Shown here piece by piece: positions 65 through 41,542 of a stretch of 41,542 bases of DNA. How positions within the stretch are numbered: the first letter of the stretch is position 1; each line of letters opens with the position of its first letter. Origin of the DNA: a virus; IMG/VR virus record IMGVR_UViG_3300044736_000014, positions 1-41,542 of that record; one strand, given 5' to 3'. The notes beneath the pieces were generated by a model, which searched no databases, was not told the origin of the DNA, and saw only the letters and a list, made by a program, of their open reading frames with translations. A program made the position numbers and the translations under genes.

Positions 65-94
65 CGAATGATGCACATTCCCCGCGGTTTCCCG

Positions 95-100
95 TAAGAT
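95..100 (+). promoter_or_regulatory. -10 box for a leaderless transcript
   Basis: TAAGAT lies exactly 6 nt before the ATG at 107, and no Shine-Dalgarno sequence precedes that ATG. In actinobacteria a TANNNT box at this distance places the transcription start on the A of the start codon. The same geometry is seen before the portal gene (TAACCT) and the small terminase gene (TAGCGT). Confidence 0.5.
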
Positions 101-106
101 CCGGGC

Positions 107-586
107 ATGGGCCGAATGCGTACCGTCATCGACGCCATCGCGGCCGACCTCCAAGCCACCATCGCCTTCCCGGCCGGCCTCCACCTCCAGAAGTACGCCC
201 CACCCATGTCCCTGACGCCTGAGCGCTGCCCGATGTTCGCCGTCTATGCCATCCGCTACCCCCGCCAGATCATCGCCACCCCCGGCACCTACGAGCAGGA
301 CCTGGAGCTCGAAATCGCCTACTACGAGTCCGGGGCCAGCTACGGCGAGACGTCAGGCGGCACCGATCCGGACCTGCCCGGCCGCCTGCTGGACACCATC
401 GAAGCCATCGGCGACCGCATGGAGACCTACGCCGTAGCCATCCCCGGCGTGGCCGGAATCCCGCCCAACCTCACCAGCTACGGCACCATCGGCGCGGGCG
501 AGACCTCCCCCAGCGCCTCGGCCATGGTCTGGCGGGCCATGCAGGAGCTCACCGTGACCGGCACCGCCCTGAGATCAATCCCGTGA
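107..586 (+). CDS. tail terminator-like protein (tentative)
   Basis: This 159-residue protein has an N-terminal helix, a central strand-rich part with a run like TYEQDLELEIAYYE, a helix LLDTIEAIGDRM, and a C-terminal strand MQELTVTGTA. Size and pattern resemble small alpha/beta tail-completion or tail-terminator proteins that cap the tail tube, but no diagnostic motif exists. A terminator is usually encoded just before the tail tube gene, and none is seen in that place here (10.8-12 kb), so this could be the displaced copy. It has no ribosome binding site and a TAAGAT box 6 nt upstream, so it is probably leaderless. An in-frame ATG at 116 is the alternative start. Its stop overlaps the next GTG (GTGA). 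Confidence 0.45.
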   Translation: MGRMRTVIDAIAADLQATIAFPAGLHLQKYAPPMSLTPERCPMFAVYAIRYPRQIIATPGTYEQDLELEIAYYESGASYGETSGGTDPDLPGRLLDTIEAIGDRMETYAVAIPGVAGIPPNLTSYGTIGAGETSPSASAMVWRAMQELTVTGTALRSIP

Positions 587-7303: not shown

Positions 7304-7306
7304 GTA

Positions 7307-7335
7307 TTGACTTTCCCGCTGAGGCTGCATACCAT
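7307..7335 (+). promoter_or_regulatory. sigma-70-type promoter for the capsid operon
   Basis: TTGACT (7307-7312), a 17-bp spacer, and TACCAT (7330-7335) match the vegetative promoter consensus at 5/6 and 4/6 positions. It lies just after the large terminase stop and in front of a 220-nt leader and the protease-capsid genes. It would separate late structural expression from the packaging genes. Confidence 0.5.
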
Positions 7336-7362
7336 CAGCACCACTATCGAGCTACTGGCTCC

Positions 7363-7520
7363 CCGTGCACAGCGGCCGTAAGCCGTGGGGATAACGCTCA
7401 ACCGTTGGCAGTGACCAGGGACCAACGGAGCCGCCCTCAGGAGGTACCGCCGACCGCCTAGGTCTGAGGGAGCAGAATAGAGCCAAGAGTCGGAGTCGGG
7501 GAGGCCCTTTCGGGGGCCTC
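7363..7520 (+). ncRNA. multi-hairpin leader RNA upstream of the capsid operon
   Basis: Downstream of the promoter at 7307 come successive inverted repeats: a CCCC...GGGG pair enclosing CGGC-CGTAA-GCCG (about 7363-7390), CCGTTGG/CCAACGG (7402-7408 with 7422-7428), CCCTCAG/CTGAGGG (7434-7440 with 7464-7470, loop containing AGGAGG), and GAGGCCC/GGGCCTC (7501-7520). No credible gene occupies this stretch. The arrangement looks like a structured 5' leader, an attenuator, or a small RNA ending at the 7501 hairpin. Confidence 0.45.
7501..7520 (+). terminator. terminator-like hairpin before the protease gene
   Basis: GAGGCCC and GGGCCTC form a 7-bp stem with a TTTCGG loop, followed by TTCGCTTTGGGCGTCTCCCC. 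The same loop occurs on the minus strand at 38543-38560. Lying between promoter and gene, it may act as an attenuator. Confidence 0.5.
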
Positions 7521-7559
7521 TTCGCTTTGGGCGTCTCCCCTTGTGGTTGGCTTTCAGCC

Positions 7560-22241: not shown

Positions 22242-22579
22242 ATGTACCCGCCCTGCTGGCTTCCGTTGCTGTCGTGCTGGGAGCCGCGATCACGGGCGGC
22301 ATGGCCTGGCTCGTCACCCGGCGTACGTCGTCAGGCAAGATCGCCCGCTCGACGGCAGCGGATCTGTGGACTGCCAGCGACCAACTACAGACGCGCCTGC
22401 TGGCCGAGGTGGACCGGATGCAGCGCATCATCGACAGCCTCCGGACCGTCGTGGCTGCCATGACCACCGCGGACGTGGAGAAGTCGGCGGAACTGGTGCG
22501 GCTCCACGGCGTCATTGACGATCTGGAGGCTGCGGTGCGCTCATTGCGGGAGCTGGCAGCCGGACGGGTCACACCGTGA
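22238..22579 (+). CDS. membrane-anchored coiled-coil protein
   Basis: GTG at 22238 overlaps the previous TGA; 113 residues. Residues 3-24 form one membrane segment (LLASVAVVLGAAITGGMAWLV), followed by basic residues and a helical region with heptads (LLAEVDRMQRIIDSLRTVV, then VIDDLEAAVRSLREL). This layout recalls spanin- or holin-partner proteins, but actinophages often carry such genes without known function. Coupled by GTGA to the collagen-like gene. Confidence 0.55.
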   Translation: MNVPALLASVAVVLGAAITGGMAWLVTRRTSSGKIARSTAADLWTASDQLQTRLLAEVDRMQRIIDSLRTVVAAMTTADVEKSAELVRLHGVIDDLEAAVRSLRELAAGRVTP

Positions 22580-23202
22580 ACACCCCCGGCCAGGAGGCCC
22601 TCAAAAAGGAGTCGGGAGCCCTCACCGAACGCTTTGCCGCTGCGCCGGAGGTGGCAAAGCTGCCCGGCCAGCGCACGCAGCTCGTCCTGTGCGGAGCCTT
22701 GTTCGTTCTCGTCTGCGCACTCGCCTTCTTCGGCTACCGCTACGCCCATACCCTCACGAAGATCAGCCAGCTCGAGCGCCAGATTGCCACTGCACCGCCC
22801 GAGCAACGTGACCGCATCCTGGGGGAGCTCCATCACGAGGTGGTCACGGCTGGGGTGCCGGGGCTGAGCGTAGCGGGACCCAAGGGTGAGACCGGAGCTG
22901 CGAGTACGGTGCCGGGGCCAAAGGGGGACACCGGTGCAGCTAGCACAGTGCCGGGGCCAAAGGGCGAGAAGGGGGACAAAGGGGATACGGTCGTAGTTCC
23001 TTCGCCGTATCCGGTGTTTGTCCTGGGACCTACGGTGACGATCACTCCCCCGCCGCCGAAGCCCAGCCCGCGCCCGCGTCGCCCCACGGATACGGCCACG
23101 TTCGGGCCGACACCTTCGCCCAGTCCGACACCTTCGCCCAGTCCGTGCCTGCTCATCGTCTCATCGACGGCTGTCACCATCGGCGGTCTCATCTGCCCAT
23201 GA
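22576..23202 (+). CDS. membrane protein with collagen-like repeats
   Basis: A 208-residue protein from GTG 22576. A cytoplasmic N-terminus of about 34 residues is followed by a membrane segment (QLVLCGALFVLVCALAFFGYRY), a short coiled part, then Gly-x-y repeats (GPKGETGAAS, GPKGDTGAAS, GPKGEKGDKGD) at about residues 98-137, and a long Pro/Ser tail. Collagen-like repeats can form triple helices. The topology places the repeats outside the membrane. In a lysis cassette it may span the cell wall, but function is unknown. Internal tandem repeats are marked separately. Confidence 0.6.
   Translation: MNTPGQEALKKESGALTERFAAAPEVAKLPGQRTQLVLCGALFVLVCALAFFGYRYAHTLTKISQLERQIATAPPEQRDRILGELHHEVVTAGVPGLSVAGPKGETGAASTVPGPKGDTGAASTVPGPKGEKGDKGDTVVVPSPYPVFVLGPTVTITPPPPKPSPRPRRPTDTATFGPTPSPSPTPSPSPCLLIVSSTAVTIGGLICP
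23107..23142 (+). repeat. 18-bp tandem repeat, two copies
   Basis: The 18-mer beginning CCGACACCTTCGCC occurs twice head to tail and encodes Pro/Thr/Ser repeats in the tail of the collagen-like protein. Confidence 0.8.
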
Positions 23203-24304: not shown

Positions 24305-24561
24305 TGGCTGAGCAGATGGCTTTCGAAGGGATGGACATCGAACAGGAGCGCATCAAGCTCAAGGCGGCTTGGGTGGCGGGGCTCGGCATGTTGCACATCG
24401 GGGACAAGGTGCGGATTGAGGGCACCGCCAAGTGCGTCGGGGTCGCATTCGAGAAGGACCCGAAGACGGGCGAGGGCATCCGCATCCACATCATCGCCGC
24501 CGAAGAGATCACGGCCACGGAAGTCGTCACCGACGACACCATCGCCGGTCTCGGGAACTAG
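24304..24561 (+). CDS. hypothetical early protein
   Basis: This 85-residue protein shares one base with the stop of the HTH gene. The first half is helical and charged (DIEQERIKLKAAWVAGLG), the second half beta-rich with KVRIEGTAKCVGVAF and IRIHIIAAEEI. No motif. A frame shared with the first early gene suggests joint expression. Confidence 0.55.
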   Translation: MAEQMAFEGMDIEQERIKLKAAWVAGLGMLHIGDKVRIEGTAKCVGVAFEKDPKTGEGIRIHIIAAEEITATEVVTDDTIAGLGN

Positions 24562-25445: not shown

Positions 25446-25687
25446 ACGTTGCCAAGGACGACGCCCGAATGTTCGCCGCCAAGATGAACCTCCCGCTTGC
25501 GCCTAACTCACTCACCGGGGCGGTGGAGGTCGCTGAGAGGTTTCTACTGTTCCACTCGTTCAGCGTCTCGGACGATGCGTCACGCGCGCTGGCCAGCGCC
25601 ACGTTCATCTTCGGCGGCAATCGCGAAGCGTGGGAGGTCTACCGGACCGTGCAGGACTTCTGGGCTGTCCGGAGGTTCGGATCATGA
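25442..25687 (+). CDS. small hypothetical protein
   Basis: An 81-residue, mostly helical protein that starts in an ATGA overlap. Ala- and Phe-rich with a central AVEVAERFLLFHSFSVSDDAS and a C-terminal AWEVYRTVQDFWAVRRFGS. No motif. Early-operon context only. Confidence 0.5.
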   Translation: MNVAKDDARMFAAKMNLPLAPNSLTGAVEVAERFLLFHSFSVSDDASRALASATFIFGGNREAWEVYRTVQDFWAVRRFGS

Positions 25688-25854
25688 AGCGCCCGGAGCC
25701 GCTGGCCAGCTGCCGGAACTGCGGGGCCGAATACCTCTTCCTCGTCCCGGCTCGGTGCCACCTCTGCGGGGTCCCGATGCTGGTCCTCATCAAGCCCGAG
25801 CCCAAACCAACCACTCGACTTCTAACCATTGTCCAAAAGGGGGATTCACTGTGA
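25684..25854 (+). CDS. zinc-ribbon microprotein
   Basis: A 56-residue protein starting at ATG 25684 (ATGA). SCRNCGAEYLFLVPARCHLCG has two CxxC knuckles spaced 13 residues apart, a compact zinc ribbon. The Lys/Pro-rich C-terminus runs into the stop that overlaps the next GTG. Confidence 0.6.
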   Translation: MKRPEPLASCRNCGAEYLFLVPARCHLCGVPMLVLIKPEPKPTTRLLTIVQKGDSL

Positions 25855-27248
25855 GCGGCCAGGATCTTGCGGTACAGCAGCCGGGGGGGCTTGCCGATCC
25901 CGGGGGGACGCATCCAGTCCCGAGGATTTCGCCTGACCTAGTGCGGCCTCGGCTGCCCGAGGTGGGGCGGATCCGGCTCGGCGAGAAGAAGGGCGAGAAG
26001 GGCTACCCGGCGAAGCTGGACACGTTCCGGTTCACGTCCCGGGACAAGGCGCTCATGGAGGTCGTCGCCGAGCGGTTCGGGGGCCACGTGCTGGACTGGA
26101 TGAGCGACGAGGGGCCGCAGTTCCAGGTCTACTCGCAGGCCACGTCGCTCGAGGTCGTCGTGCCCCGAACCGAGCTCGCCTTCTCCCAGTGGTTCGAGAA
26201 CTGGGACGGGGCGGTCTGCCGCCGTCGCTGCGACGGGCACCACGACATCATCGGGGACCGGGCCTGTGTCTGCGACCCTGACAAGCAGGACTGCCTGCCG
26301 ACGACCCGGCTGAACATCATGCTCCCGGACATCCCCGGCATGGGCGTGTGGCGGGTGGAGTCGCACGGGTTCAACGCCGCTGCCGAGATTCTGGGCACGA
26401 TCGAGCTGGCAGCGGCGTCCGGGGCGAGCCTGCTGCCCGCCACGCTGACCCTCGCCCAGCGGTCCAAGCGGCGGCCGGATCCCAAGAACCCGATGAAGAT
26501 CGTCACCAACCGGTTCGTCGTGCCCGTGCTGGTCATCAACGCCAGCCTCCGGGAGATGGTCGCCGAGCAGGATGCCATCCGCCGCCGCACGCTGGGGATG
26601 CTGCCGATGGCCGAGCTTGCCGACGAGAGCCGCATGCGGGCGCTGCGGACAGCGGTGTTCACGCGCTGGCCCAAGAGTGTCGACGAGCCCGAGCGGTCAC
26701 AGCGCCTCGCCCAGCTTTCGGCCATGCTCGGGCGGCCGGTGCTGACCATCTCGGCCGACCACGATCTGACCATGCGGGAGGCCATCCTTCTGACCGACAC
26801 GGTGGAGTCGCTGCTCGCCGACAACAGGACTGTCACAGCCGGGGAGCCTGTCCCCCAGGTGAGCCCCGAGGATTCCTCGGGAGAGGGGGTGATGCCGGCC
26901 GAGACAGATGGGCCGGATTGGAACGAGGATCCGACACGGCCCGCAGATGTGCCGGGCGGGGTGGGAGCTACCAAGGGTCAGGGGACCCGACAGGCACCCG
27001 CCCCGCCGGCACCACACATGACTGAATCGCTGCTGGATGAGTCGGATGCGGAGGTGGAGTACCGGGAGATCAAGGCGCAGATCAAGGAACGGCGTCGTAG
27101 CGCCGCAGCCATCGCCACCACTCGGGAGTTCCTGATCGGGCTCGGCGGTGAGTTCAAGGGGATGACCGAGGTTGATGCCGTCAAGGCGCTGAGCGAAAGC
27201 CAGCTTGAATCACTGACCGCCAAGCTGATTGAACGGCACCTCTCGTGA
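25851..27248 (+). CDS. recombination directionality factor, phiC31 gp3-like
   Basis: This 465-residue protein begins with a short variable part, then from about residue 40 matches gp3-type factors: VGRIRLGEKK and LDTFRFTSRDKALMEVVAERFGG, a WFENWDG block, a zinc-like cluster CRRRCDGHHD...CVCDPDKQDC, TTRLNIMLPDIPGMGVWRVESHG and PATLTLAQRSKRR. gp3 switches a serine integrase from insertion to excision. This one is about twice the size; residues 310-465 are an acidic linker and a helical tail. No integrase is visible here, and lytic relatives carry gp3-like genes too. Confidence 0.8.
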   Translation: MSGQDLAVQQPGGLADPGGTHPVPRISPDLVRPRLPEVGRIRLGEKKGEKGYPAKLDTFRFTSRDKALMEVVAERFGGHVLDWMSDEGPQFQVYSQATSLEVVVPRTELAFSQWFENWDGAVCRRRCDGHHDIIGDRACVCDPDKQDCLPTTRLNIMLPDIPGMGVWRVESHGFNAAAEILGTIELAAASGASLLPATLTLAQRSKRRPDPKNPMKIVTNRFVVPVLVINASLREMVAEQDAIRRRTLGMLPMAELADESRMRALRTAVFTRWPKSVDEPERSQRLAQLSAMLGRPVLTISADHDLTMREAILLTDTVESLLADNRTVTAGEPVPQVSPEDSSGEGVMPAETDGPDWNEDPTRPADVPGGVGATKGQGTRQAPAPPAPHMTESLLDESDAEVEYREIKAQIKERRRSAAAIATTREFLIGLGGEFKGMTEVDAVKALSESQLESLTAKLIERHLS

Positions 27249-29591: not shown

Positions 29592-30883
29592 GCTCGTATG
29601 TGATCCGTGGCGACGCCCGGCGGATCCCGCTGGCGGACGAGTCTGTGGACCTCATCATCGAGTCTGGTCCCTACTGGGGTTTGCGCTCGTACCGCGACGG
29701 CGGGAGCCACTACGACGGGCAGATGGGCAGCGAGCCTCACCCGCAGCTCTGGCTCGAGAACTACTGGGCGCACATGAAGGAGAACTGGAGGGTCCTAAAA
29801 CCCACGGGGTCCTGCTGGATCAACCTCGGCGACAAGAGGGCCGGGAGCGGGGGCCACAACAATTGGCACACAGCCCCCATCGAAGGCGGCAAACGAAGGC
29901 TGCGGGAACGGGCGGCCGAACAGAACTCGGGGCCGCTCTGTAGGACGCGCAATGCACCGGATCGGTACGAGCAGGCGGCGTTCGGGCGGCCGAAGTCGAA
30001 GATGCTGCTGCCCCATCGGTTCGCCATCGGGTGCGAGGATGGGCTTGCGGACCCGGATGGCATCGGCTGGATTGTGCGGCAGGACCAGGTCATCGCCAAG
30101 CTGAACGGGCTGCCCGAGAGCGTGACCGACCGGACCCGGGACTCACACGAGATGTTCTTCCACATGGTCAAGCAGGAGCGGTACTTCAGCGCCACGGATG
30201 AAATCCGGGAGCGGTACACCGAGGGCACAGCAGAGCGGTACGCGACCGGCTACGGCGTCGGAAGCTACGAGGGTGCGCAGATCGGCAAGGGCTACACCAA
30301 CGGTGGCGGGGGACCTTCCGCGGTCAACCCCCTGGGGAAGTTGCCGGGATCGGTGTGGTCGGTGGCGTCCGAGCCGTTCATCGTGCCACCGGACATCAAG
30401 GCCCGCTACGACCTGCCCGATCACTTCGCTGCGTTCGTGGGCGGCACGGAGCTGGTGCGGCGGATCATGCTGGGCTGGAGCCCCCATGCGATCTGCCTGA
30501 CCTGCGGCGAGGGCCGTCGGCCGGTGGTGGAGCGGTCGCCGATGGAAGTACGGGCCTCTGCCCGACGTCTCGCGGCACAGACGAACGGAGAAGCAAGCCG
30601 TACAGCTGTCGGCGGCACGATGACCAAGGCGCACGAGGCCACCATCCTCGGCTACTCGTGCGCCTGCGGGGTGGACCCGGATGAGCCGTCGCGCCCGGCG
30701 GTGGTGCTGGACCCGTTCGTCGGCAGCGGCACAACGCTGCTCGTAGCGAACGCTCTGGGGCGTACGGGGATCGGGCTGGACCTTTCGGCCGACTACACGC
30801 GTCTCGCGGCCTGGCGGGCCTCACAGCGGTCGGAGAAGGTTGTCAGCAGGACGTGGGCCGAGCGGCAAGGTTCGTTGCTGTGA
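29588..30883 (+). CDS. DNA methyltransferase (N4/N6, beta-type order)
   Basis: A 431-residue enzyme adds a methyl group to an amino nitrogen of A or C from S-adenosylmethionine. The catalytic loop motif IV comes first, near residues 24-29, as SGPYWGLRSY instead of the usual (D/N/S)PPY; the second residue is Gly. The cofactor motif I (DPFVGSGTTLL, about 374-384) is near the C-terminus, followed by GIGLDLSADYTRLA. The order IV-target-I is the beta class. The middle 200 residues (target recognition) include a Cys pair (CLTCGE, CACGV) like a zinc knuckle. It would protect phage DNA or compete with host restriction. Confidence 0.88.
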   Translation: MSSYVIRGDARRIPLADESVDLIIESGPYWGLRSYRDGGSHYDGQMGSEPHPQLWLENYWAHMKENWRVLKPTGSCWINLGDKRAGSGGHNNWHTAPIEGGKRRLRERAAEQNSGPLCRTRNAPDRYEQAAFGRPKSKMLLPHRFAIGCEDGLADPDGIGWIVRQDQVIAKLNGLPESVTDRTRDSHEMFFHMVKQERYFSATDEIRERYTEGTAERYATGYGVGSYEGAQIGKGYTNGGGGPSAVNPLGKLPGSVWSVASEPFIVPPDIKARYDLPDHFAAFVGGTELVRRIMLGWSPHAICLTCGEGRRPVVERSPMEVRASARRLAAQTNGEASRTAVGGTMTKAHEATILGYSCACGVDPDEPSRPAVVLDPFVGSGTTLLVANALGRTGIGLDLSADYTRLAAWRASQRSEKVVSRTWAERQGSLL

Positions 30884-32939: not shown

Positions 32940-33314
32940 GAGACCTGAGCTGGCTCGACCGTATCGCCTGCGCCGGCATGGACCGACATCTTCTTCCCCG
33001 AGCGCGGCGAGCGGGCCGAGGCCGCAAAGGTCGTGTGCCGCACCTGCCCGTGGGTCCGCCATGTCCCGGAGGTAGGTGAGACGTGTCTTGTGTATGCCAT
33101 GCCGTTCTGGGCCGGTGAACTTACGTTCTACACGATGCTGCGAAGTGCGGGCACGGCTTGCCTCGGTGATTGGAACGACCGGCAGACCGACGTGGGCGCC
33201 GTTCTCGGCATGACCCTGCAAGCCCTCATCGCCGAACTGTGCAAACCCACTTCCACGCACCACCGCGAAGGCGTAACATCTAGCCCAGAAAAGAAAGGAC
33301 CCCGGGGGCTCTGA
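32936..33314 (+). CDS. WhiB-like regulator, frame changed (+1)
   Basis: From ATG 32936 (ATGA with the methylase) the frame reads RIACAGMD and then loses sense, stopping at 33074. One base ahead, the frame reads DIFFPERGERAEAAKVVCRTCPW, typical of WhiB after the first Cys (AC-x-G-M-D), and continues to 33314. The +1 frame has no start before CRTC except GTG 33030, so a shift around 32981-32987 is needed. After CRTCP, the fourth Cys is 12 residues further than usual and the GVWGG turn is absent. WhiB proteins are iron-sulfur transcription regulators. The gene looks damaged or programmed; the last 40 bp run into the repeat. Confidence 0.5.
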
Positions 33315-33398
33315 CACCCCCGAGGCACTTTCGCCCGACCCGTATAGGAGGCCAGGCATGCCAGAGCGTACCGAGTCGCAGCATTCCGAAGCAAGCCC
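33273..33398 (+). repeat. 126-bp inverted repeat, left copy
   Basis: Every base matches the reverse complement of 41417-41542. From left to right it holds TAACAT (-10-like), AAAAGAAAGG, a hairpin CGGGGG/CCCCCG (33303-33308 with 33317-33322), TAGGAGG, the ATG at 33358 and 14 codons. The right side of identity ends at 33398. The left side cannot be bounded because the other copy meets the window end. Confidence 0.95.
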
Positions 33399-33690
33399 GC
33401 AGCACACGCCCGGCCCTTGGCGCGTGGTAAGCAGCGTGTACGTCGATGATGTGTACGGGCCGGATGGCGACATGCTCGCCAGTGTCCTCTCGCCTGCTGA
33501 TCCAGACGTGACGGCGCACATGAACGCGGGGATCATCGGCGCGGCCCCCGACCTGCTGGCGGCGCTCAAGTCGCTGCTGGCCTGCGTGGATGCGACTGAG
33601 GACGAGCGCTGGCCGATCATCCGCATCACTCGCCCGATGGTGGAGATTCTGGACGGGCTGGTCGCCAAAGCCGAAGGGCGGCAGCCGTGA
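33358..33690 (+). CDS. HTPGPW-type hypothetical phage protein
   Basis: This 110-residue protein is read from ATG after TAGGAGG. Its first 14 residues (MPERTESQHSEASP) come from the repeat; from residue 16 it shows HTPGPWRVV, VYGPDGDMLASVL, and AGIIGAAPDLLAALKSLL, a pattern found in many phage proteins of unknown role. Its stop overlaps the next GTG. It is the first gene downstream of the leader and probably transcribed with the FtsK-like gene. Confidence 0.7.
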   Translation: MPERTESQHSEASPQHTPGPWRVVSSVYVDDVYGPDGDMLASVLSPADPDVTAHMNAGIIGAAPDLLAALKSLLACVDATEDERWPIIRITRPMVEILDGLVAKAEGRQP

Positions 33691-34169
33691 CGCCCACCGC
33701 AAGCTCAACCTGCAGCCTGCAGGACCCGAAGCGCCCCGCGTGGCAGCCGCTCGCACTCTGCACTGGCTGCCACGCTGAGCAGAACAGCGCAACTCGCTCC
33801 GACGGGCTCGGCTACTACTGCGGCAAACGCAAAGACGGCCTGATCGGTGAGAACGGCGCCGAGTCGCGGCGCAACCCCCGGAAAGTGACCCTCTACGACT
33901 CCAAGCCCGTCGGCTACTCCCGCGCCATCCCCGGCGGCATGAAGTCCGCGGGCCGCCCCGAGAAGTATCCGTACAGCCAGTGGTTCGACGACCAGCCCCA
34001 CACGCTGACGGCAGGCGTGGACTTCGGCCACGACACCATGACGGCGCACGGCATCCAGGCGTTCCGCAAGGTCGTCATCGACGCCGCCTTGAAGCGCCGC
34101 TACGACGTGACCGTCTCCGCGCTGGGCAGCATCGTCACTCTCACCCCGAGAACGCAGGCCGTGGCATGA
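33687..34169 (+). CDS. hypothetical protein with CxxC
   Basis: 160 residues, GTG start overlapping the previous gene. ALCTGCHAEQ is a possible single knuckle; YYCGKRK gives one further Cys. The rest is mixed, with KVTLYDSKPVGYSRAIPGG and a beta-rich end (YDVTVSALGSIVTLTP). No known family. Confidence 0.5.
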   Translation: MTPTASSTCSLQDPKRPAWQPLALCTGCHAEQNSATRSDGLGYYCGKRKDGLIGENGAESRRNPRKVTLYDSKPVGYSRAIPGGMKSAGRPEKYPYSQWFDDQPHTLTAGVDFGHDTMTAHGIQAFRKVVIDAALKRRYDVTVSALGSIVTLTPRTQAVA

Positions 34170-34666
34170 GCATCCCGGGTTTCGCGGACATGGCAGCACG
34201 CATCGACCGGCTCGCCGCGGAGCATGAGGTCGCCGTGACGTGGTGTGATTCGGGTAGCAAGGCGTACACCGATCAGCGCCGTATTGCCATCCGGCCGGTA
34301 CGCACTGAGGTGACCTACGCTGTCGCCCTGCACGAGTTGGGCCACATTCTCGCCGAGGGCGGGCAGGGGCTCTTCTGGATGGACCTGGACGCCGAGAGTT
34401 GCGCTTGGGAATGGGCGCTCCGCAATGCTGGCACCGTCGGCCCGAGATTCCGTGCGACAGTCAAGAGGGGCCTTCAGAGCCACTACAACTGGGCGCTGCG
34501 GGAGCGGAACTGCACCCCTCGGACCCTCAGTTTCCAGACCTACTTGGCTGCCAAGAACAGCGCGCCGTCACTCCCGCCGAGTGACAACCGCTTTTGGCCC
34601 CTCCTGCGAAACGGCTGCCTCTGTCCTGAGGCTCACGAAGAATTCTGCCACCTGGACGACGAATGA
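34166..34666 (+). CDS. zinc metalloprotease-like protein (HExxH)
   Basis: This 166-residue protein has HELGH near residues 56-60 in AVALHELGHILAEGG, and, about 16 residues further, a downstream Glu in AESCAWEWAL. This is the ImmA/IrrE-like gluzincin layout, where two His and one Glu bind zinc. ImmA-type proteases cut phage or mobile-element repressors; others have unrelated roles. It is coupled to the neighbours by ATGA overlaps. The C-terminal third is basic and not recognised. Confidence 0.7.
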   Translation: MSIPGFADMAARIDRLAAEHEVAVTWCDSGSKAYTDQRRIAIRPVRTEVTYAVALHELGHILAEGGQGLFWMDLDAESCAWEWALRNAGTVGPRFRATVKRGLQSHYNWALRERNCTPRTLSFQTYLAAKNSAPSLPPSDNRFWPLLRNGCLCPEAHEEFCHLDDE

Positions 34667-36438
34667 CCCCCACCCCGCCCCCCGTGCCGCTGGAGCGAGC
34701 CCACGAGCTCAACACGTTCCTCGACGGGATCGGCCGCAGCGTGGGCGAGTTCCTGAGCCGACCGCACATGGTCAGCGTGAGCAGCGTGCACGTCCACATC
34801 GCCCCGCACCTGGCACTCGCCGCGTTCCCCATCGCCGGGGCCGCTCTCGCCCTGCCGGCCGGCCTGTGGGCGAAGCGCCATGCCGACGACTTGGCGATGC
34901 GCCTCGGTGGCCTCGACCCTCGGGTGCGCTCGGAAATGATCCGCTGGAACCGCATGACGGAAAAGGTGTTCCCGGAAAAGCCGGGCTTCATGGCCGAGGC
35001 CCCCATCATTCAGAAGGCTATCGGCGGCCGCAGCACGAAATCCGGCGTGACCCTGCTGATCCACTTCGCCAACCGGGGCAACCCCGAGGGCCTGGCGAAC
35101 GAGAAGGTGCTGGCCGGCGTGGCATCTCATCTGGGTTGCCCGGTGGAGATCGAACGCATCTACCTCAAGCCGCATCGTGCCCTCGCCCGCCTCCAGCGCC
35201 GTGACACGCTCGCCAAGCCCACTCCCTGGCCGTGGCTCAACCGGGAGACGACGGACTTCCTCGGTCCCATCCCCGTGGCTGTGGACCTGAACGGAAAGAC
35301 GCTCACCGTGGATCTGCGGGAGAAGAACGCGCTGGTAGGTGGCGAGCCCGGCGGTGGCAAGTCCGTGACCCTGCATGAGTACATCGCCGCCGCGGCCCTC
35401 GACATCCGGGTCCGCATCCACGTCTTCGCCGGCAAGCAGGGAGCCGACTTCCGGGTGTGGGAGCCCATCTGTGACACGTTCGTCACCGACGACGAGGACG
35501 ACGCCGACAAGCTGATTCCGGCCCTGGCGAAGATCAAGGCCCGCATGGACCGCACTTACAAGTCCTTCCCGCTCGGCGTCCACGCGATCAACTGGGACAC
35601 GGCGCAGCGTGTCGACCTTGTGGTGATCGACGAGCCCGGCGCCTTCCCCCCGGCCCTGTGGAAAGCCGAGCTCGCCTTCAACGCCCGGGGCCGGGCTGCC
35701 GGGGTCATGTCAGTCCTCGCCACGCAGCGCCCCTCGAGCAAGATCATGGACACCGACCTGCGGGCGCTGTACCAGATCCGCCACGGCCACCGCCTCGAGG
35801 ACGCCGGGATGCTGATGACCCTCGGCGACAACTACCGGGGCTACAGCGCCAAGGCGTTCGGCCCGGACCGGGCGGGCGAGTGCTGGCTGGTCCCGAACGA
35901 CCGCACACCGGTCCACTGCCGCTCGTTCTTCCTGACCGATAGGGACCTATCTACCCTTGCGGAGCGGGCCAGGGTGCTCCGGGCTATCGATGCCGCCCCT
36001 ACTGGTTCGGTCCCTGACAATACCGCCAACAACGGTCCCCAGAACGCGGAGGACATCCCCCCCGCCGCCGTTGCTCCCAAATTGGAACTTATCTCCAGCA
36101 CGGCCCCCAAGGTTGAGACTCCGGCGGTGAGGCTGACTGGTACCGAAGCGGCTCAGAAGCTCAGGGACCTGCTGGAAGCCATTGCCGAGCTCGGCCCCGA
36201 AGTCACCGGCCCGGCCCTCCGCACTGCCCTGCAGGTGGGCTCCGACGTGATCTCAGTCCGCGGACGGAAGTTGTTGGACGCGGGCTACGTCCAGAATGCC
36301 CGCAAAGCCCCCCAGGATGCCCCCAGCGGCGGAAGCCGGGATCCGCTGGTGTGGTCGATCACCGATCCCGGCAGAGAGGCGCTGAAGGCATCACGCAACG
36401 ATCCGGTTGCACAACCGAGAGAGGCAGGTGCACAGTGA
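34663..36438 (+). CDS. FtsK/TraB-like DNA translocase
   Basis: This 591-residue ATPase has a hydrophobic N-terminal segment near residues 50-70 (HLALAAFPIAGAALALPAGLWA), Walker A GGEPGGGKSV (about 226-235), Walker B VVIDEPG (about 320), and a sensor-like LATQRPSS. The central RecA-like domain pattern (RIHVFAGKQGADFRVW) is like FtsK and the TraB/TraSA transfer ATPases. The C-terminal 100 residues end in a winged-helix-like domain. Such proteins move double-stranded DNA, in plasmid transfer or chromosome segregation. Start at ATG 34663 overlaps the protease gene. Confidence 0.8.
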   Translation: MTPTPPPVPLERAHELNTFLDGIGRSVGEFLSRPHMVSVSSVHVHIAPHLALAAFPIAGAALALPAGLWAKRHADDLAMRLGGLDPRVRSEMIRWNRMTEKVFPEKPGFMAEAPIIQKAIGGRSTKSGVTLLIHFANRGNPEGLANEKVLAGVASHLGCPVEIERIYLKPHRALARLQRRDTLAKPTPWPWLNRETTDFLGPIPVAVDLNGKTLTVDLREKNALVGGEPGGGKSVTLHEYIAAAALDIRVRIHVFAGKQGADFRVWEPICDTFVTDDEDDADKLIPALAKIKARMDRTYKSFPLGVHAINWDTAQRVDLVVIDEPGAFPPALWKAELAFNARGRAAGVMSVLATQRPSSKIMDTDLRALYQIRHGHRLEDAGMLMTLGDNYRGYSAKAFGPDRAGECWLVPNDRTPVHCRSFFLTDRDLSTLAERARVLRAIDAAPTGSVPDNTANNGPQNAEDIPPAAVAPKLELISSTAPKVETPAVRLTGTEAAQKLRDLLEAIAELGPEVTGPALRTALQVGSDVISVRGRKLLDAGYVQNARKAPQDAPSGGSRDPLVWSITDPGREALKASRNDPVAQPREAGAQ

Positions 36439-36581
36439 ACAGGACCGCAGAGGACGAGCAGGCCAGCGACGACCAGGTGTCGACAGCCCTCTGGCTCGAG
36501 AACAGCCACGCTGGTTGGACCCGGGAGGACACCATCGCCGAGCGGTGCGACGAAGCCGCGAGGCTACGGAAAGAGAGTTGA
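36435..36581 (+). CDS. 48-residue acidic protein
   Basis: GTG start overlapping the translocase stop, with GAGAGGCAGG about 7-15 nt upstream. Acidic and helical (ENSHAGWTREDTIAERCDEA). No motif; probably translated with the translocase. Confidence 0.45.
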   Translation: MNRTAEDEQASDDQVSTALWLENSHAGWTREDTIAERCDEAARLRKES

Positions 36582-36582
36582 C

Positions 36583-36846
36583 ATGGGCCTCATTGACGAA
36601 GCAGCGATGGCCAGCTGGACGGCCTGGCATCTCGACAAGCTCGCCATCCATGGGGCCTCCAAGGCGTACCAGCTGGCCCAGGAACTGGCCGCGTGGGCAC
36701 GGCTCCAGCCCGACCACTACCCCAAGCACTGGGGGGCCTCCAGCGGCGGCTACGACGAGGACGGCGAGGAAATCTGCCAGGGCTACATCATGTACGACGA
36801 CTACGGAATCGAGGCCGGCGCCGAACCTCTCGGGCTGCCGGAATGA
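36583..36846 (+). CDS. small hypothetical protein
   Basis: This 87-residue protein begins at ATG 36583, one base after the previous stop. It has many Trp, Tyr and Asp (ASWTAWHLDKLAIHGASKAY; YDEDGEEICQGYIMYDDYG). No known motif. Its stop overlaps the next ATG. Confidence 0.5.
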   Translation: MGLIDEAAMASWTAWHLDKLAIHGASKAYQLAQELAAWARLQPDHYPKHWGASSGGYDEDGEEICQGYIMYDDYGIEAGAEPLGLPE

Positions 36847-37142
36847 GCGAAAGGACACCAGACGTGAACGACCCCGAACTGAACGCCATGCAGGCCATCG
36901 CCGAGGCTGTGCTTTCCCTGAACCCAGCCGACCAGAAGCGCATCGCCCGCTGGTCCATGCCCACCACCACCGTCGAGGTGAGGGCCCAGGGAGCCGTCCT
37001 GGCGGCCCTCGAGCCCTTGAGCGAGCCCCAGCGCCAGCGTGTGATCCGCTGGACCGTGAGCCGCTTCACCGGCCCCGTCGGCACCAAGGCCGGCCGTCCC
37101 AAGAAGGCCCAGGACCACGTCCGGAGCGCTGATGCCGCATGA
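36843..37142 (+). CDS. small protein with AT-hook-like end
   Basis: A 99-residue helical protein from ATG 36843. The body repeats a two-part helical pattern (AIAEAVLSLNPADQKRIARWS, then VLAALEPLSEPQRQRVIRWT). The C-terminus (KAGRPKKAQ) contains GRP between basic residues, an AT-hook-like DNA-binding tail. It is probably a DNA-binding early protein. Confidence 0.55.
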   Translation: MSERTPDVNDPELNAMQAIAEAVLSLNPADQKRIARWSMPTTTVEVRAQGAVLAALEPLSEPQRQRVIRWTVSRFTGPVGTKAGRPKKAQDHVRSADAA

Positions 37143-37480
37143 GTCCGTCTGAGGTGCTTCTACGGGCAGCGGACCGGGTGCAGTTCGGCGGCTGGACGCA
37201 GTTAACCTACGCTCAGACCGCCGATGGCAGGTGCGTGGCCGCTCGTCATCCTGACGCTGTGAAGTGGTGCGCCAAGGGGGCTCTCAAGGCTGAGGCCCGC
37301 AACCGATACCAGTTTGGGAAATGCGTCTCTCTGGTGGAAGATGATCTGAACCAGCGGGACCGGGTCTACCACAACTGGACTCTCATGACCTGGAACGACC
37401 AAGCAGGCCGCACCGCCGGTGAGGTGGCAGACACGATGCGTCGGACCGCCAAGGAGCTATCGAACGGGGCGGCGGCATGA
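37139..37480 (+). CDS. DUF6197-like protein
   Basis: 113 residues starting in an ATGA overlap. The pattern VLLRAADRVQFGGWTQ, then VKWCAKGALKAEA and TWNDQAGRTAGEVADTMRRTAKEL matches the DUF6197 layout that is frequent in actinobacterial phages and plasmids. No activity is known. Confidence 0.6.
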   Translation: MSPSEVLLRAADRVQFGGWTQLTYAQTADGRCVAARHPDAVKWCAKGALKAEARNRYQFGKCVSLVEDDLNQRDRVYHNWTLMTWNDQAGRTAGEVADTMRRTAKELSNGAAA

Positions 37481-37611
37481 TCTTCTCGGCCCTCCTGATC
37501 GCCGTCCTGTCCGTCGCCCTGGTGCTCGGGATCCTCTGGCTCACGCTCCGGCTGACCGTGCCCGGCGAAGAGAAGGTCATCACCGACGCCTTCCGGAGGC
37601 GCCAGTCATGA
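37477..37611 (+). CDS. 44-residue membrane peptide
   Basis: ATG 37477 overlaps the previous stop. Residues 2-27 form one hydrophobic helix (IFSALLIAVLSVALVLGILW), followed by a basic tail with VITDAFRRRQ. Not recognised. It overlaps the next ATG. Confidence 0.5.
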   Translation: MIFSALLIAVLSVALVLGILWLTLRLTVPGEEKVITDAFRRRQS

Positions 37612-37793
37612 GCGAGACTGTGACCTGTTTCCGGTGCCAAGGTGACGGAATCACAGGAACGTACTGGACTAACGATACGGCCTACAACGTCGAGTGCCCT
37701 GATTGCAACGGGGAGGGTCAGGTGTCTAAGAAGTCCTGGCAAGGGGAGGAATCCGAGACAGCTTGGCACCGGGTGGGGAACTACTCGAAGTGA
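37608..37793 (+). CDS. DnaJ-type zinc-finger microprotein
   Basis: 61 residues from ATG 37608. CFRCQGDG and CPDCNGEG are two CxxCxGxG repeats, the zinc-binding motif of the DnaJ central domain, but without a J-domain. Such short proteins occur in phages and may bind unfolded proteins or DNA. The stop overlaps the next GTG. Confidence 0.65.
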   Translation: MSETVTCFRCQGDGITGTYWTNDTAYNVECPDCNGEGQVSKKSWQGEESETAWHRVGNYSK

Positions 37794-38401
37794 GCACGAA
37801 GGAAGCCTCCCGCCGCAGCCCCCTGCACGACGAATGGGCGCTCCGAATCAAGGGCCGCGACCATTGGAAGTGCTGGGGCTGCGGCATGTCTGCGGACGAA
37901 GCCAAGGCCCGTGGGGGGCGTTTGGAGGCTGCCCATTTCCTGCCGCACAACGAGTACCCCGACCGCCGCTACGAGATGGATAACGGCCGGGCACTCTGCA
38001 CCTTCCGTAACCGCCAGCATCCGAAGGGGTTGGGCGGTGGCTACGGCTGCCACAATGCTGTCTCAGGTCATTGGAACCACGGAGGGAACGCAGTGCCATT
38101 CCACTCACACCCGGGCGGCTTCTGGCACAAGGTGGGCGTCCTGGTCCTGTCGATCCCGCTGTGGTGGGCCATCGTCATCGCCGACATCGACCTGCGCTAC
38201 TACTGGGCCTGGTCCCGGCACTTCACCTTCGGCCAGGCCACCACGATCGGGGGCATGTTCACCCTGCTCCTGGGCCTCGTGGCCCTCTGGGGCGCCTGCC
38301 TGACCCTCTGCCACGTAGCCCTACGCAGACGCTGGCTGGGCCGCTCTGCCCGCGGAATCTGGCACGCCCTGGCACGGCTGGCAAAGTGGGCGAAGCCATG
38401 A
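37790..38401 (+). CDS. HNH nuclease fused to a two-helix membrane region
   Basis: This 203-residue protein begins at GTG 37790. The first 100 residues form an HNH domain: WALRIKGRDHWKCWGCGM, AAHFLPHNEYPDRRYEMDNGRALC, and CHNAVSGHWNHGG. The second half has two membrane segments, KVGVLVLSIPLWWAIVIADI and TIGGMFTLLLGLVALWGACL, then a basic tail. The same frame is open throughout. GGAGGG before an in-frame GTG near 38092 could start the membrane part separately. If fused, this would be a membrane-anchored nuclease. Confidence 0.6.
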   Translation: MSTKEASRRSPLHDEWALRIKGRDHWKCWGCGMSADEAKARGGRLEAAHFLPHNEYPDRRYEMDNGRALCTFRNRQHPKGLGGGYGCHNAVSGHWNHGGNAVPFHSHPGGFWHKVGVLVLSIPLWWAIVIADIDLRYYWAWSRHFTFGQATTIGGMFTLLLGLVALWGACLTLCHVALRRRWLGRSARGIWHALARLAKWAKP

Positions 38402-38574
38402 GGACTCGTTCGGCGCTTTCCCGATGCGGGCACGGGTTACCTCCCCGTTGCCCGTGGTGCTTGGACGATTGGGCAGCGTTGAATGCCCCTCCGTGGCGTC
38501 GGAAAGGAAGGCCGTTAGCGCAACCTGAGCCAGAACGCAAGAGAGCCCCCGAAAGGGCTCCCAAGCTGGGATAA
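38398..38574 (+). CDS. 58-residue Cys-containing protein
   Basis: ATG 38398 overlaps the previous stop. RCGHGLPPRCPWCLDDW contains CPWC and further Cys/His, a possible zinc knuckle; the tail is Arg-rich. It is the last rightward gene; a terminator-type hairpin lies in its final codons. Confidence 0.5.
   Translation: MRTRSALSRCGHGLPPRCPWCLDDWAALNAPPWRRKGRPLAQPEPERKRAPERAPKLG
38543..38560. terminator. bidirectional hairpin between convergent operons
   Basis: GAGCCC and GGGCTC form a 6-bp stem with CCGAAA loop (TTTCGG on the minus strand), near the convergent ends of the rightward gene (38574) and the leftward gene (38585). The loop is the same as in the hairpin at 7501. Confidence 0.6.
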
Positions 38575-38584
38575 GCAGAGGGGG

Positions 38585-38947
38585 CTACAGCGCAGCCAGT
38601 TCCCGGTAGCAGGTAGCCCATCCAAGTCGCCGTGCCTGATCATTGATCACCTTGCGCCAGTTCTCCGGGTAGTCCCGGTCCTCATCCTCGCCGTCACCGT
38701 CCATGTAGACTGTCGGGCAGGACGGAACTTGAGCAATCCAAGTGATCCCCAACCGCTCAGCATCGGCTTTGAGCGTGTCGATCCCGGCGCTCAGATCCGT
38801 CACGGCGTACCTCAGACTCAGCCGACCTTCGGTGCTGGCCTTGTCGCAAAACCCATTGTCCTTGAACTCCAGGGATATGCTCCACTGCTCCCCGTCGGCG
38901 TAGTACCTGACCATGATTCCCGTGCTCCAGTAGCCCTCGCCGATCAT
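38585..38947 (-). CDS. hypothetical leftward protein
   Basis: 120 residues on the minus strand from an ATG at 38947, read toward 38585. Beta-rich start with YYADGEQWSISLEFKDNGF, then a helix (GIDTLKADAERLGI). Acidic patch DGDGEDED. No motif. Last of six leftward genes, convergent with the rightward region. Confidence 0.55.
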   Translation of the reverse strand: MIGEGYWSTGIMVRYYADGEQWSISLEFKDNGFCDKASTEGRLSLRYAVTDLSAGIDTLKADAERLGITWIAQVPSCPTVYMDGDGEDEDRDYPENWRKVINDQARRLGWATCYRELAAL

Positions 38948-38948
38948 G

Positions 38949-39122
38949 TCACAGCCCTCCCTTTCGCATGGCCCGCCCGAATCCCCGCCACAGCGCCTTG
39001 CGGACCAGCCGGCGCCCCAGCGGCTTCACGCTCCCCGTCCTGACAGACTGCCTCACAGCCTCGACGTCGCCCAGCACGCGGGCCCCCCGGTACAGCCCCC
39101 GCCGCAGCCCGGAGAGGGTCAC
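38949..39122 (-). CDS. 57-residue basic protein
   Basis: GTG at 39122 overlaps the upstream stop, giving a very basic peptide (LRRGLYRGARVLGDVEAV, then RRLVRKALWRGFGRAMRKGG). Similar short basic proteins with LGDVxA are found in actinobacterial mobile elements, from memory, with no known function. It may bind nucleic acid or membrane. Confidence 0.5.
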   Translation of the reverse strand: MTLSGLRRGLYRGARVLGDVEAVRQSVRTGSVKPLGRRLVRKALWRGFGRAMRKGGL

Positions 39123-39319
39123 GGCGCAGCGGCCTCGTACTCAGCCTTGGTTCCGAACCAGATATTGGTGCTGTCGGTGTACCAGTAATCGGCACTGACG
39201 AAGAACTCATGCTCTGCCCCAACGTGGTCCTTGATAGTGATCCGCACGTACCAACGGTGTTCGTCGAACTCCACCGACTCCGGGTGGTCGAACTTGACAA
39301 GATCCCCGTCCATCCTCAC
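39119..39319 (-). CDS. 66-residue beta-rich protein
   Basis: GTG 39319 overlaps the previous stop (GTGA); an in-frame ATG lies two codons later. Strand pattern (EHRWYVRITIKDHVGAEHEFF, then DSTNIWFGTKAEYE). No family. Confidence 0.5.
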   Translation of the reverse strand: MRMDGDLVKFDHPESVEFDEHRWYVRITIKDHVGAEHEFFVSADYWYTDSTNIWFGTKAEYEAAAP

Positions 39320-39477
39320 ACCTGCCGTCCGGCAGCGGCTTTGGCCTCACGTCGGGCGATGTCTGCGGCTACGTCTTCGTACTGGCGGATGCAGTAGACC
39401 CAGGACTCCGAGGAACACACGTCGGCACGCTGGAGAATCCACGGCCGCACTTCACGTTTGCATCTGGGACAAACCAT
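39316..39477 (-). CDS. 53-residue zinc-knuckle protein
   Basis: From ATG 39477, MVCPRCKREV begins with a CxxC knuckle; Cys at about 21 and 29 may complete the site. Then a helix (QYEDVAADIARREAKAAAGR). It lies 3 nt after the AlpA-like gene stop and overlaps the next gene. Confidence 0.55.
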   Translation of the reverse strand: MVCPRCKREVRPWILQRADVCSSESWVYCIRQYEDVAADIARREAKAAAGRQV

Positions 39478-39480
39478 GTC

Positions 39481-39708
39481 TCACGCCTCCTGTTCGGGTG
39501 CTGCCGAGATAAGAATTCCGTCCTTGGTGCGCACCGTCCTGGCCCTCAGCCATGCCTCCACCTCGACCCAGTCCCACACCGGCCCCATCTCGAGCTGGAC
39601 GGGCTTGGGGAAGTCGCTGTGGCGCTTCGTCCAGCTCCACACGGTGGCCTTGACCACCCCCGCCCGTTGCGCAATCTCGCCCGCCCCCACAGGGTCCGAG
39701 AGGGTCAT
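39481..39708 (-). CDS. AlpA/excisionase-like DNA-binding protein
   Basis: 75 residues. GAGEIAQRAGVVKATVWSWTKR is a MerR-type helix-turn-helix, then FPKPVQLEMGPVWDWVEVEAWL completes the winged-helix pattern typical of AlpA or excisionase proteins (HTH_17). These bend DNA or activate excision. It overlaps the first leftward gene by ATGA. With the gp3-like factor elsewhere, it may take part in excision or regulation. Confidence 0.75.
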   Translation of the reverse strand: MTLSDPVGAGEIAQRAGVVKATVWSWTKRHSDFPKPVQLEMGPVWDWVEVEAWLRARTVRTKDGILISAAPEQEA

Positions 39709-39935
39709 CGCGAAGGCCGTCCGTACCTGATCGCACGTCGGTAAAAATCACGTTGCTCGCCCGGCTCTGCTGTTTCCGCCTCCGGGAAAGCGAAGTCGTG
39801 TGCTGGCTCCGTGCTCCAGATCTCTCGCTTGCCGACGATGATGGGTGCTGCCTCGTCGATGTGAGGAGCCCACGCTGGCACAAGAACCCGTTCTGCCCGG
39901 TCAGGGTCTACGGGGGCTATCCAGTACAGATCCAT
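39705..39935 (-). CDS. first leftward gene, hypothetical
   Basis: 76 residues from ATG 39935, which has GAGAGGA 7 nt upstream; longer readings lack a binding site. Contains WAPHIDEAAPIIVGKREIWS and an acidic middle. No motif. It follows the leftward promoter by about 30 nt. Confidence 0.55.
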   Translation of the reverse strand: MDLYWIAPVDPDRAERVLVPAWAPHIDEAAPIIVGKREIWSTEPAHDFAFPEAETAEPGEQRDFYRRAIRYGRPSR

Positions 39936-39971
39936 TTCAGTTCCTCTCGCTCGGTGTTCTCTGTGCCTCAT

Positions 39972-40001
39972 ATCTTACGGCATTAAGGGAATGGGTGTCA
40001 A
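39972..40001 (-). promoter_or_regulatory. leftward early promoter
   Basis: Read on the minus strand: TTGACA (40001-39996), 18-bp spacer, TAAGAT (39977-39972). It lies about 37 bp upstream of the first leftward ATG. It shares -10 and spacing with the promoter-like site at 30905. Confidence 0.65.
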
Positions 40002-40004
40002 GAG

Positions 40005-40217
40005 ATGTGGGGCAGAAAGGTCTCAGACACCGAAGTCCTTGACGAGCTCCAAGTTCTGATTCTCACCTGTTCTCGCCGCTCCGTAGTAACGCTTCTTATT
40101 ACGTCGGCTAAACGGACGAGCGGGACGAAAAACGGAGGCGATCGGCGACCCCGCGGGATCCACCTATCGTTCGGGCGCTCAGAACTGCCGATATCCCCCA
40201 AATGGGGCATGGCCTGA
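40005..40217 (+). CDS. doubtful small rightward frame
   Basis: A 70-residue frame opens at ATG 40005 with a plausible start (MWGRKVSDTEVLDELQVLIL) but a basic, low-order end. There is no clear ribosome binding site and no neighbour overlap. An opposite frame of equal length exists. I consider the 40002-40280 stretch mainly an intergenic region, possibly holding an operator for the leftward promoter. Confidence 0.25.
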   Translation: MWGRKVSDTEVLDELQVLILTCSRRSVVTLLITSAKRTSGTKNGGDRRPRGIHLSFGRSELPISPKWGMA

Positions 40218-40280
40218 CGGCGTGAGAAGCCGCATTGCAGTAAGAACGGGGTGATCGGTTCGGGTCGGTCAGATGAGCGT

Positions 40281-40304
40281 GTAGCGAATCGCGATACGCG
40301 CTAC
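40281..40304 (-). terminator. hairpin at the end of the short methylase gene
   Basis: GTAGCG (40281-40286) and CGCTAC (40299-40304) form a 6-bp stem around a TCGCGA-containing loop. It overlaps the stop codon of the leftward methylase gene. Confidence 0.4.
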
Positions 40305-40840
40305 CGGCGGGCCTCCATCGCCGGCGGTGAGTCCCCGTCGAGGGGGTTGCCGGCGACGATGTGCCGGGCCAGGGCCTCGGGCGGGATGGTGCCACCCGTC
40401 TCGAGCGACACCGCCACGCGGGCGAGCTCGGCTGCCACGGGGTCGATGTCGATGCCGAACACCGACCACAGCACCACGGTCGGCATGACGGCGAACACCT
40501 GGGCGGCCGTGGGTTGGCCACCGAACAGCCGGCCGGCGTAGTTGGCGGCGAGCAGCCGGGCGGCCTCGACGAGGAACACGCCGCAGCCGCAGGCCGGATC
40601 GCACACCACCAGGCGAAGGATGGCCTGGGGGTCCTGCCCGTCGACCTGGCGGATTGCCTGCTCCAGGGCGAAGGTCGTCATGAACGTGGCGACGGGCTTG
40701 GGCGTGTAGAAGATCCCGCCGGCCGTGCGTTCGGCCATCGCCACCATCGCCTCATACGTCTCGCCGAGCAACTCGGCGTCGAGGTCCTCGCCGTAGCGGG
40801 ACCTGGCCTCGTCGAGCACGGCGGCCGCCGTGACCGTCAT
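40301..40840 (-). CDS. short N6-adenine methylase (Eco57I/N6_Mtase type)
   Basis: This 179-residue protein has GIFYTPKPVATFM (X region), motif I DPACGCGVFLVEAARLL (about 76-92), a motif II-like FGIDIDPVAAELARV, and HIVAGNPLDGD where a IxxGNxLxG segment is expected. It stops there, before any NPPY catalytic motif. A full enzyme of this type is 400-1000 residues, so this one lacks catalytic and target recognition parts. It is either inactive, a subunit, or acts with the Cys-rich upstream protein, to which it is joined by ATGA. Confidence 0.7.
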   Translation of the reverse strand: MTVTAAAVLDEARSRYGEDLDAELLGETYEAMVAMAERTAGGIFYTPKPVATFMTTFALEQAIRQVDGQDPQAILRLVVCDPACGCGVFLVEAARLLAANYAGRLFGGQPTAAQVFAVMPTVVLWSVFGIDIDPVAAELARVAVSLETGGTIPPEALARHIVAGNPLDGDSPPAMEARR

Positions 40841-41457
40841 GGCTCCGGGTGGTCGATGCCGTCGATGCCGTCGAACGGGCCGACGCCGAAAGCGAAGTCC
40901 ATGAGGATGGCGACCCCCAGCGCCCGGCGGGCTGCGGCCTCTTCGGGCGTGCAGTCGCACCAGGCCAAGTAGGCGCCCTGGCGCTCGACGTCGTCGAAGC
41001 GACGACAGCCACACCTACGGCCCCGGCAGCGGCCGGCGAGGGTGTACGGCTTGCCGTCCCACGTCTTGGCGCCGCGGAAGGTCTTACGGTGGTGGCGGCT
41101 CTCCGGGCATCCGCAGATGCACGTTCCGCCGTGGCACCACCAAGCGTGCGGCAGACCCGGACAGGCCGCGCAGCCGTCGCAATGGGGTGTGACCGTCAGC
41201 GTGCAGGTGGGGCATTGCCGGCCGAACTCGGGCCCGTAGGGACTCTCTACAAAGGACGCGTACACCAGGCGCACCGCCGCCCGCTCCTCGGCCTCGAGGG
41301 CGCCGACTTCCCATTTCGTGATGCGCTCGTCCCAGATGCCTTTCCGTTTCCAGCGGTCCAGGATGTCGTTCTGCTCGTTGCTCGACCACGAGAGGAGCGT
41401 GTAAAACGCGCCTTCGGGGCTTGCTTCGGAATGCTGCGACTCGGTACGCTCTGGCAT
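40837..41457 (-). CDS. Cys-rich protein starting in the repeat
   Basis: 206 residues from ATG 41457, with TAGGAGG upstream, both inside the repeat. The first 14 residues (MPERTESQHSEASP) are identical to those of the 33358 gene. The middle contains CPTCTLTVTPHCDGCAACPG, CHGGTCICGCPESRHH and CRGRRCGCRRF, at least a dozen Cys that may form several zinc sites. No family recognised. It is coupled to the short methylase and may supply DNA binding for it (inference). Confidence 0.65.
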   Translation of the reverse strand: MPERTESQHSEASPEGAFYTLLSWSSNEQNDILDRWKRKGIWDERITKWEVGALEAEERAAVRLVYASFVESPYGPEFGRQCPTCTLTVTPHCDGCAACPGLPHAWWCHGGTCICGCPESRHHRKTFRGAKTWDGKPYTLAGRCRGRRCGCRRFDDVERQGAYLAWCDCTPEEAAARRALGVAILMDFAFGVGPFDGIDGIDHPEP

Positions 41458-41542
41458 GCCTGGCCTCCTATACGGGTCGGGCGAAAGTGCCTCGGGGGTG
41501 TCAGAGCCCCCGGGGTCCTTTCTTTTCTGGGCTAGATGTTAC
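41417..41542 (-). repeat. 126-bp inverted repeat, right copy
   Basis: Exact reverse complement of 33273-33398, reaching the last base of the window. It directs the leftward Cys-rich gene and the short methylase. Because identity continues to the window edge, the true length may be greater. Confidence 0.95.

Follow-up and report, generated by a model that had tools for sequence, protein, structure and literature searches.

The window analysed here is an entire IMG/VR virus record of 41,542 bases, in which positions 33273-33398 and 41417-41542 are reverse complements of each other over 126 of 126 nucleotides (100%). The two arms lie 8,018 nt apart and form the sole long inverted pair within the window, and an inverted identity of this kind cannot arise by chance. 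Each arm carries the start region of a gene, referred to as gene C on the left and gene B on the right; we call the shared sequence cassette R and its right copy R'. The features at the locus are the following:

33251..33256, + strand: possible -35 box TTCCAC of the left promoter, with a 17-nt spacer to TAACAT
33273..33398, + strand: cassette R, left (native) copy; its parts in order are an extended -10 box (GTAACAT), the A-rich leader with its hairpin, AGGAGG, the start codon ATG and 41 coding nt
33293..33332, + strand: leader hairpin (predicted)
33346..33351, + strand: ribosome binding site AGGAGG, assigned from its sequence
33358..33690, + strand: gene C, phrog_1273 protein of 110 aa (match E 1e-11, residues 15-109)
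39972..40001, - strand: separate promoter TTGACA-18-TAAGAT of a leftward operon, assigned from its sequence
40301..40840, - strand: N6 adenine methyltransferase, 3'-truncated, 179 aa, stopping just before the catalytic NPPY motif
40837..41457, - strand: gene B, an orphan of 206 aa rich in cysteine motifs, whose reading frame continues that of the 14 shared codons
41417..41542, - strand: right copy R', its outer edge being the record end

In the left copy the -10-like box TAACAT occupies 33274-33279 and the start codon ATG lies at 33358. The leader folds with a z-score of -1.94, 5 of 200 shuffled sequences folding equally well. The first 14 codons of gene C fall inside the repeat, and the homology to phrog_1273 starts at residue 15, where the repeat ends. 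The first-pass annotation had described an inverted identity over every base, with each copy holding a -10-like box, an A-rich stretch, a hairpin, a strong ribosome binding site and 14 codons before joining unrelated genes; the arms are indeed fully complementary and all of these elements are present, the shared coding part measuring 41 nt or 13 2/3 codons. As the plausible -35 box lies outside the shared 126 bases, the copy as seen is without the whole promoter, so that either the true copy extends beyond the 126 bases or its promoter is weak. The sequence GTAASAT occurs in the window at only four positions (94+, 33273+, 39978- and 41542-), all of them operon-type starts, with 1.4 occurrences expected by chance. 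R is most likely an ordinary early promoter of the extended -10 type (GTAASAT) whose leader forms a hairpin ahead of a strong ribosome site. No known RNA family was found above chance in the cassette leader, and no relatives of gene C were confirmed in IMG/VR. The first of the four positions belongs to a further start:

94..107, + strand: GTAAGAT promoter, immediately inside the other contig end, from which the first rightward gene has a near-leaderless start

Both here and in a related genome (45316-45329 of G001, see below) 6 nt separate GTAAGAT from the start codon of this first gene, a start of the leaderless type.

The cassette is unique within the record: no further copies of the 126 bp exist elsewhere in the 41,542 bases, no extra copies of its hairpin or ribosome-site region were found in the window, and a scan of IMG/VR with the exact cassette pattern gave no match. 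The octamer CGAAGGCG directly precedes the left copy (33266-33273) and directly follows the right copy (41416-41409); the window contains it 10 times.

A search with the FtsK-like protein yielded one relative, IMGVR_UViG_3300011270_000008 (here G001, also L006), of 51,992 bases, which is largely colinear with the window apart from a rotation. The best match to the cassette in all of G001 is the syntenic region 35841-36010 (rank 1 of 5,184 tiles), which is reciprocally best with the left leader and equalled by none of 2,000 shuffles; an initial stringent scoring failed to single out this site and a gentler one did. It is framed by colinear blocks, window 33171-33244 corresponding to G001 35020-35093 and window 33489-33564 to G001 36344-36419. 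The order of parts in the G001 leader is the same as in R, i.e. AGGCGTAAGATC, a hairpin (z -2.24), ATAGGAGGCC and ATG, and the first 15 codons align without gaps to those of G001 gene 1 (25 of 45 nt identical, codon-shuffle p 0.003). The homology is modest at the DNA level and rests also on synteny. This best and reciprocal match at a syntenic site between colinear flanks identifies the left copy as native and the right copy as derived. The first-pass annotation had suggested searching relatives for the same leader before other genes, and in G001 the orthologous leader does precede a different gene body: its gene 1 runs on into a different 87-aa protein and the phrog_1273 gene comes next, whereas the phrog_1273 body in the window follows the start immediately. 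G001 carries two phrog_1273 paralogs (29905-30201 and 36237 onward), each near a promoter and hairpin leader, and the window has one.

Several other loci stood out. The gene at 24311-24561 is 79% identical to G001 39641-39891, far from its expected colinear place in G001. The protein encoded at 25497-27248 contains a phiC31 gp3-like recombination directionality factor domain (PF18897) and is 73% identical in G001. Short collagen-like Gly-X-Y repeats (GPKGETGAASTVPGPKGDTG) at 22576-23202 are encoded by a 39-bp tandem repeat. A non-coding stretch of 202 bp (window 7327-7528) is 95% identical to G001 12679-12478 on the opposite strand, inverted and in a different intergenic region; elsewhere the two genomes mostly share 66-84% identity where alignable, far below this value. 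The conserved part opens with a promoter-like sequence, TTGACT-17-TACCAT here and TTGATC-17-TACACT in G001, and closes with a hairpin and T-rich tail that resemble a terminator. The element has no match in Rfam, phages or GTDB genomes, matches only G001 in IMG/VR, and its predicted fold is no better than that of shuffles. A natural guess is a small RNA gene which moved as a unit and is possibly mobile. The slot after the large terminase gene holds a different sequence in each of four related phages, comprising about 700 nt without an evident gene in G001:

window 7303-7540: terminase slot
L006 1966-2690: terminase slot
L009 5633-5793: terminase slot
L010 9433-9683: terminase slot

On the right side, gene B has its coding signal in the fused frame immediately behind the join, with a codon log-likelihood of 0.50 compared to -0.76 and -1.08 in the other frames. 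It has no matches in IMG/VR, GTDB genomes, phages or plasmids, and it overlaps the start of the methyltransferase fragment. Relatives of the latter are found on actinobacterial plasmids of Streptomyces and Nonomuraea (~39-43% identity, about 395-418 aa), the nearest being those of Streptomyces; a frameshift behind the short methyltransferase was ruled out, the homology being continued in no frame. Both genes lie in the divergent region that extends from the short leftward operon to the first rightward gene, and since the leftward operon has its own promoter, B and the methyltransferase form an upstream unit of their own. No such genes are present at that place in G001, which makes the pair either an accessory insert or a join. 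Known phages show no DNA similarity to 33.0-41.5 kb or to 38.4-41.5 kb.

The right copy stops exactly at the final base of the record, the repeat abutting the scaffold end to the base, and the earlier suspicion of a contig end was justified. A k of 127 is a common maximum in assemblies. The repeat length of 126 equals 127-1, i.e. k-1 of this usual maximal k. Perfect end overlaps of metaSPAdes scaffolds are often n-1 long for a largest k-mer of n (Chen et al. 2020, PMC7111523). The repeat resembles these in its perfect identity, its exact scaffold-end position and its length, and differs in that the overlap matches an internal inverted site, thereby recording a real or artificial fork in the graph. 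As a yardstick we used 80 microvirus contigs from IMG/VR, 28 of which have an exact direct terminal repeat, with lengths recurring at 99, 121, 123 and 127; two other perfect end repeats in this set are exactly 126 long. The 126-bp length and the outer edge of the repeat are probably products of the assembler. Because the extent corresponds to a k-1 end overlap at k=127, neither the length nor the outer boundary counts as biological evidence, and the informative part is the inner edge, a single fork at 33398/41417 where one sequence has two different continuations. The left contig end (1-126) has nothing in common with R, which rules out the repeat as the closing point of a circular genome. A terminal inverted repeat or another true genome terminus, suggested by one arm sitting at the contig end, is scarcely credible for the same reason, the other arm moreover being internal at 33.3 kb.

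The first-pass annotation had read the perfect identity as recent duplication, gene conversion or active recombination. The extent of the identity loses its weight as evidence, being equal to the k-1 overlap of a k=127 metaSPAdes assembly, but the join fits promoter, ribosome site, start and frame. Recent duplication stays the best reading since the right join sets all four correctly before a gene; gene conversion and active inversion are left without specific support. By a crude estimate, a random join would fall just downstream of such a start with correct orientation and frame in ~1/1,000 cases (4 starts x 60 nt / 41.5 kb x 1/2 x 1/3), and an accidental fit of all signals is unlikely.

On balance we lean towards a real second copy of the cassette in the same genome, joined recently to acquired genes. 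In this model R would be the native start of an early rightward operon, comprising its promoter, hairpin leader, ribosome site and start codon. A second copy of at least 126 bp would lie in inverted orientation on the opposite side of the genome, within the divergent region, where R' would read in frame into the acquired orphan gene B followed by the truncated N6-methyltransferase. Recent illegitimate or homologous recombination may have fused the cassette, near codon 14, with the body of a newly gained gene, which would give B transcription and translation initiation without a start of its own; the contig would stop at R' because a k=127 assembler cannot pass the shared k-mer unambiguously. 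The same shared start in front of a different body in G001 fits this recombination reading. The sequence identity, the in-frame join, the syntenic orthology of the left leader and the truncation of the methyltransferase are shown directly; we infer the presence of both copies in one genome, the recombination event and expression. Several points count against the model: the copy stops right where the record does and is as long as an assembly overlap, the sequence being known only to 41542; the path via the left copy is resolved and the path out of the right copy is not, which a simple fork without a second copy would match; the left contig end (1-126) matches nothing in R; and the join to B occurs in no relative, B having no match in the searched collections. 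The methyltransferase is cut mid-domain, so that 40301 could be a second, artificial join.

Such a fork could reflect a mixed population, in which some genomes have R followed by B as the local first gene and others have R followed by C owing to a deletion, the assembly having followed one of the branches while the other survives as an overhang of k-1 bases, and the connection between the truncated methyltransferase and the leftward operon being a misjoin or a strain rearrangement. We consider this unlikely. It agrees with the inner edge as the only informative part of the repeat, with the methyltransferase truncation at 40301 and with the order in G001, where another first gene stands between the leader and phrog_1273, a CCC-CAG stretch in both frames offering a site at which a deletion could fuse them. 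However, it requires a second unexplained inverted join at 40301, where there is no repeat to cause it, and B shows no homology to the first gene or any other part of G001.

A fold-back chimera from amplification or library preparation, in which the strand that ends in B would have primed again at 33398 on the opposite strand, is unlikely. Single-molecule chimeras are usually discarded in a k=127 assembly, which argues against this origin, as does the correct promoter, ribosome site, start codon, orientation and frame before a coding sequence. The geometry would suit it, the arms being inverted and 8 kb apart with identity unbroken up to the contig end: of the chimeras formed in multiple displacement amplification, 85% were inversions, favoured at less than 10 kb between segments (PMC1855051). 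The present case shares with them two sites less than 10 kb apart joined in inverted orientation, and differs by a join in frame behind a promoter and start codon.

By geometry alone, identical inverted arms around an 8-kb segment would also suggest an invertible segment (33399-41416) whose gene order is switched by recombination. This is very improbable: no site-specific recombinase domain was recognised among ten proteins scanned in or next to the segment (31-41 kb, small ORFs partly covered), the FtsK-like, HNH-like and other genes inside are colinear with G001 in fixed orientation, and the outer flank of the right arm lies beyond the record end. The phiC31 gp3-like domain at 25.5-27.2 kb resembles a directionality factor, not an inversion recombinase. 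Active inversion has no support.

Phage genomes are mosaic, gene bodies being swapped or fused behind a fixed upstream region. The window and G001 resemble this pattern as two related phages with the same promoter and start but different gene bodies; the difference is that the shared unit takes in the first 14 codons and is 100% identical at both positions. Cluster K mycobacteriophages have start-associated sequences (SAS/ESAS; PMC3203893), and motifs resembling these occur in Microbacterium phages (PMC7302621). R is like them in being a constant, near-identical start element over the ribosome site before genes of different families, with an AGGAG core and an inverted repeat just upstream of the ribosome site, here the hairpin at 33293-33332. 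In contrast, SAS has 13 bp, many copies per genome and no coding part, whereas R has at least 126 bp, a -10 box, 14 codons and two occurrences. A 13-bp GGGATAGGAGCCC-type motif repeated before many starts was not seen in the window: even with as many as 3 mismatches allowed, GACCCGTATAGGAGGCCAGG is confined to the two copies. We rejected membership of R in this class as the defining short, many-copy motif is missing. A bolder reading, which we regard as doubtful, is a portable expression-and-tag module of this phage group whose constant promoter, hairpin leader, ribosome site and ~14 codons have repeatedly recombined before different bodies at about the same codon. The bodies would be the 87-aa G001 gene, phrog_1273 and B, and such a module, equally doubtful, would provide a standing route to early control of acquired genes.

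For metagenomic virus records, a perfect terminal inverted repeat should be checked first against the k-mer length of the assembler. What remains here after this check is a single promoter-and-start unit with two different genes attached. Should both joins be present in one genome, the locus would represent a recent and still readable case of a phage gaining expression signals for an acquired gene, the route being recombination within the start of a gene.
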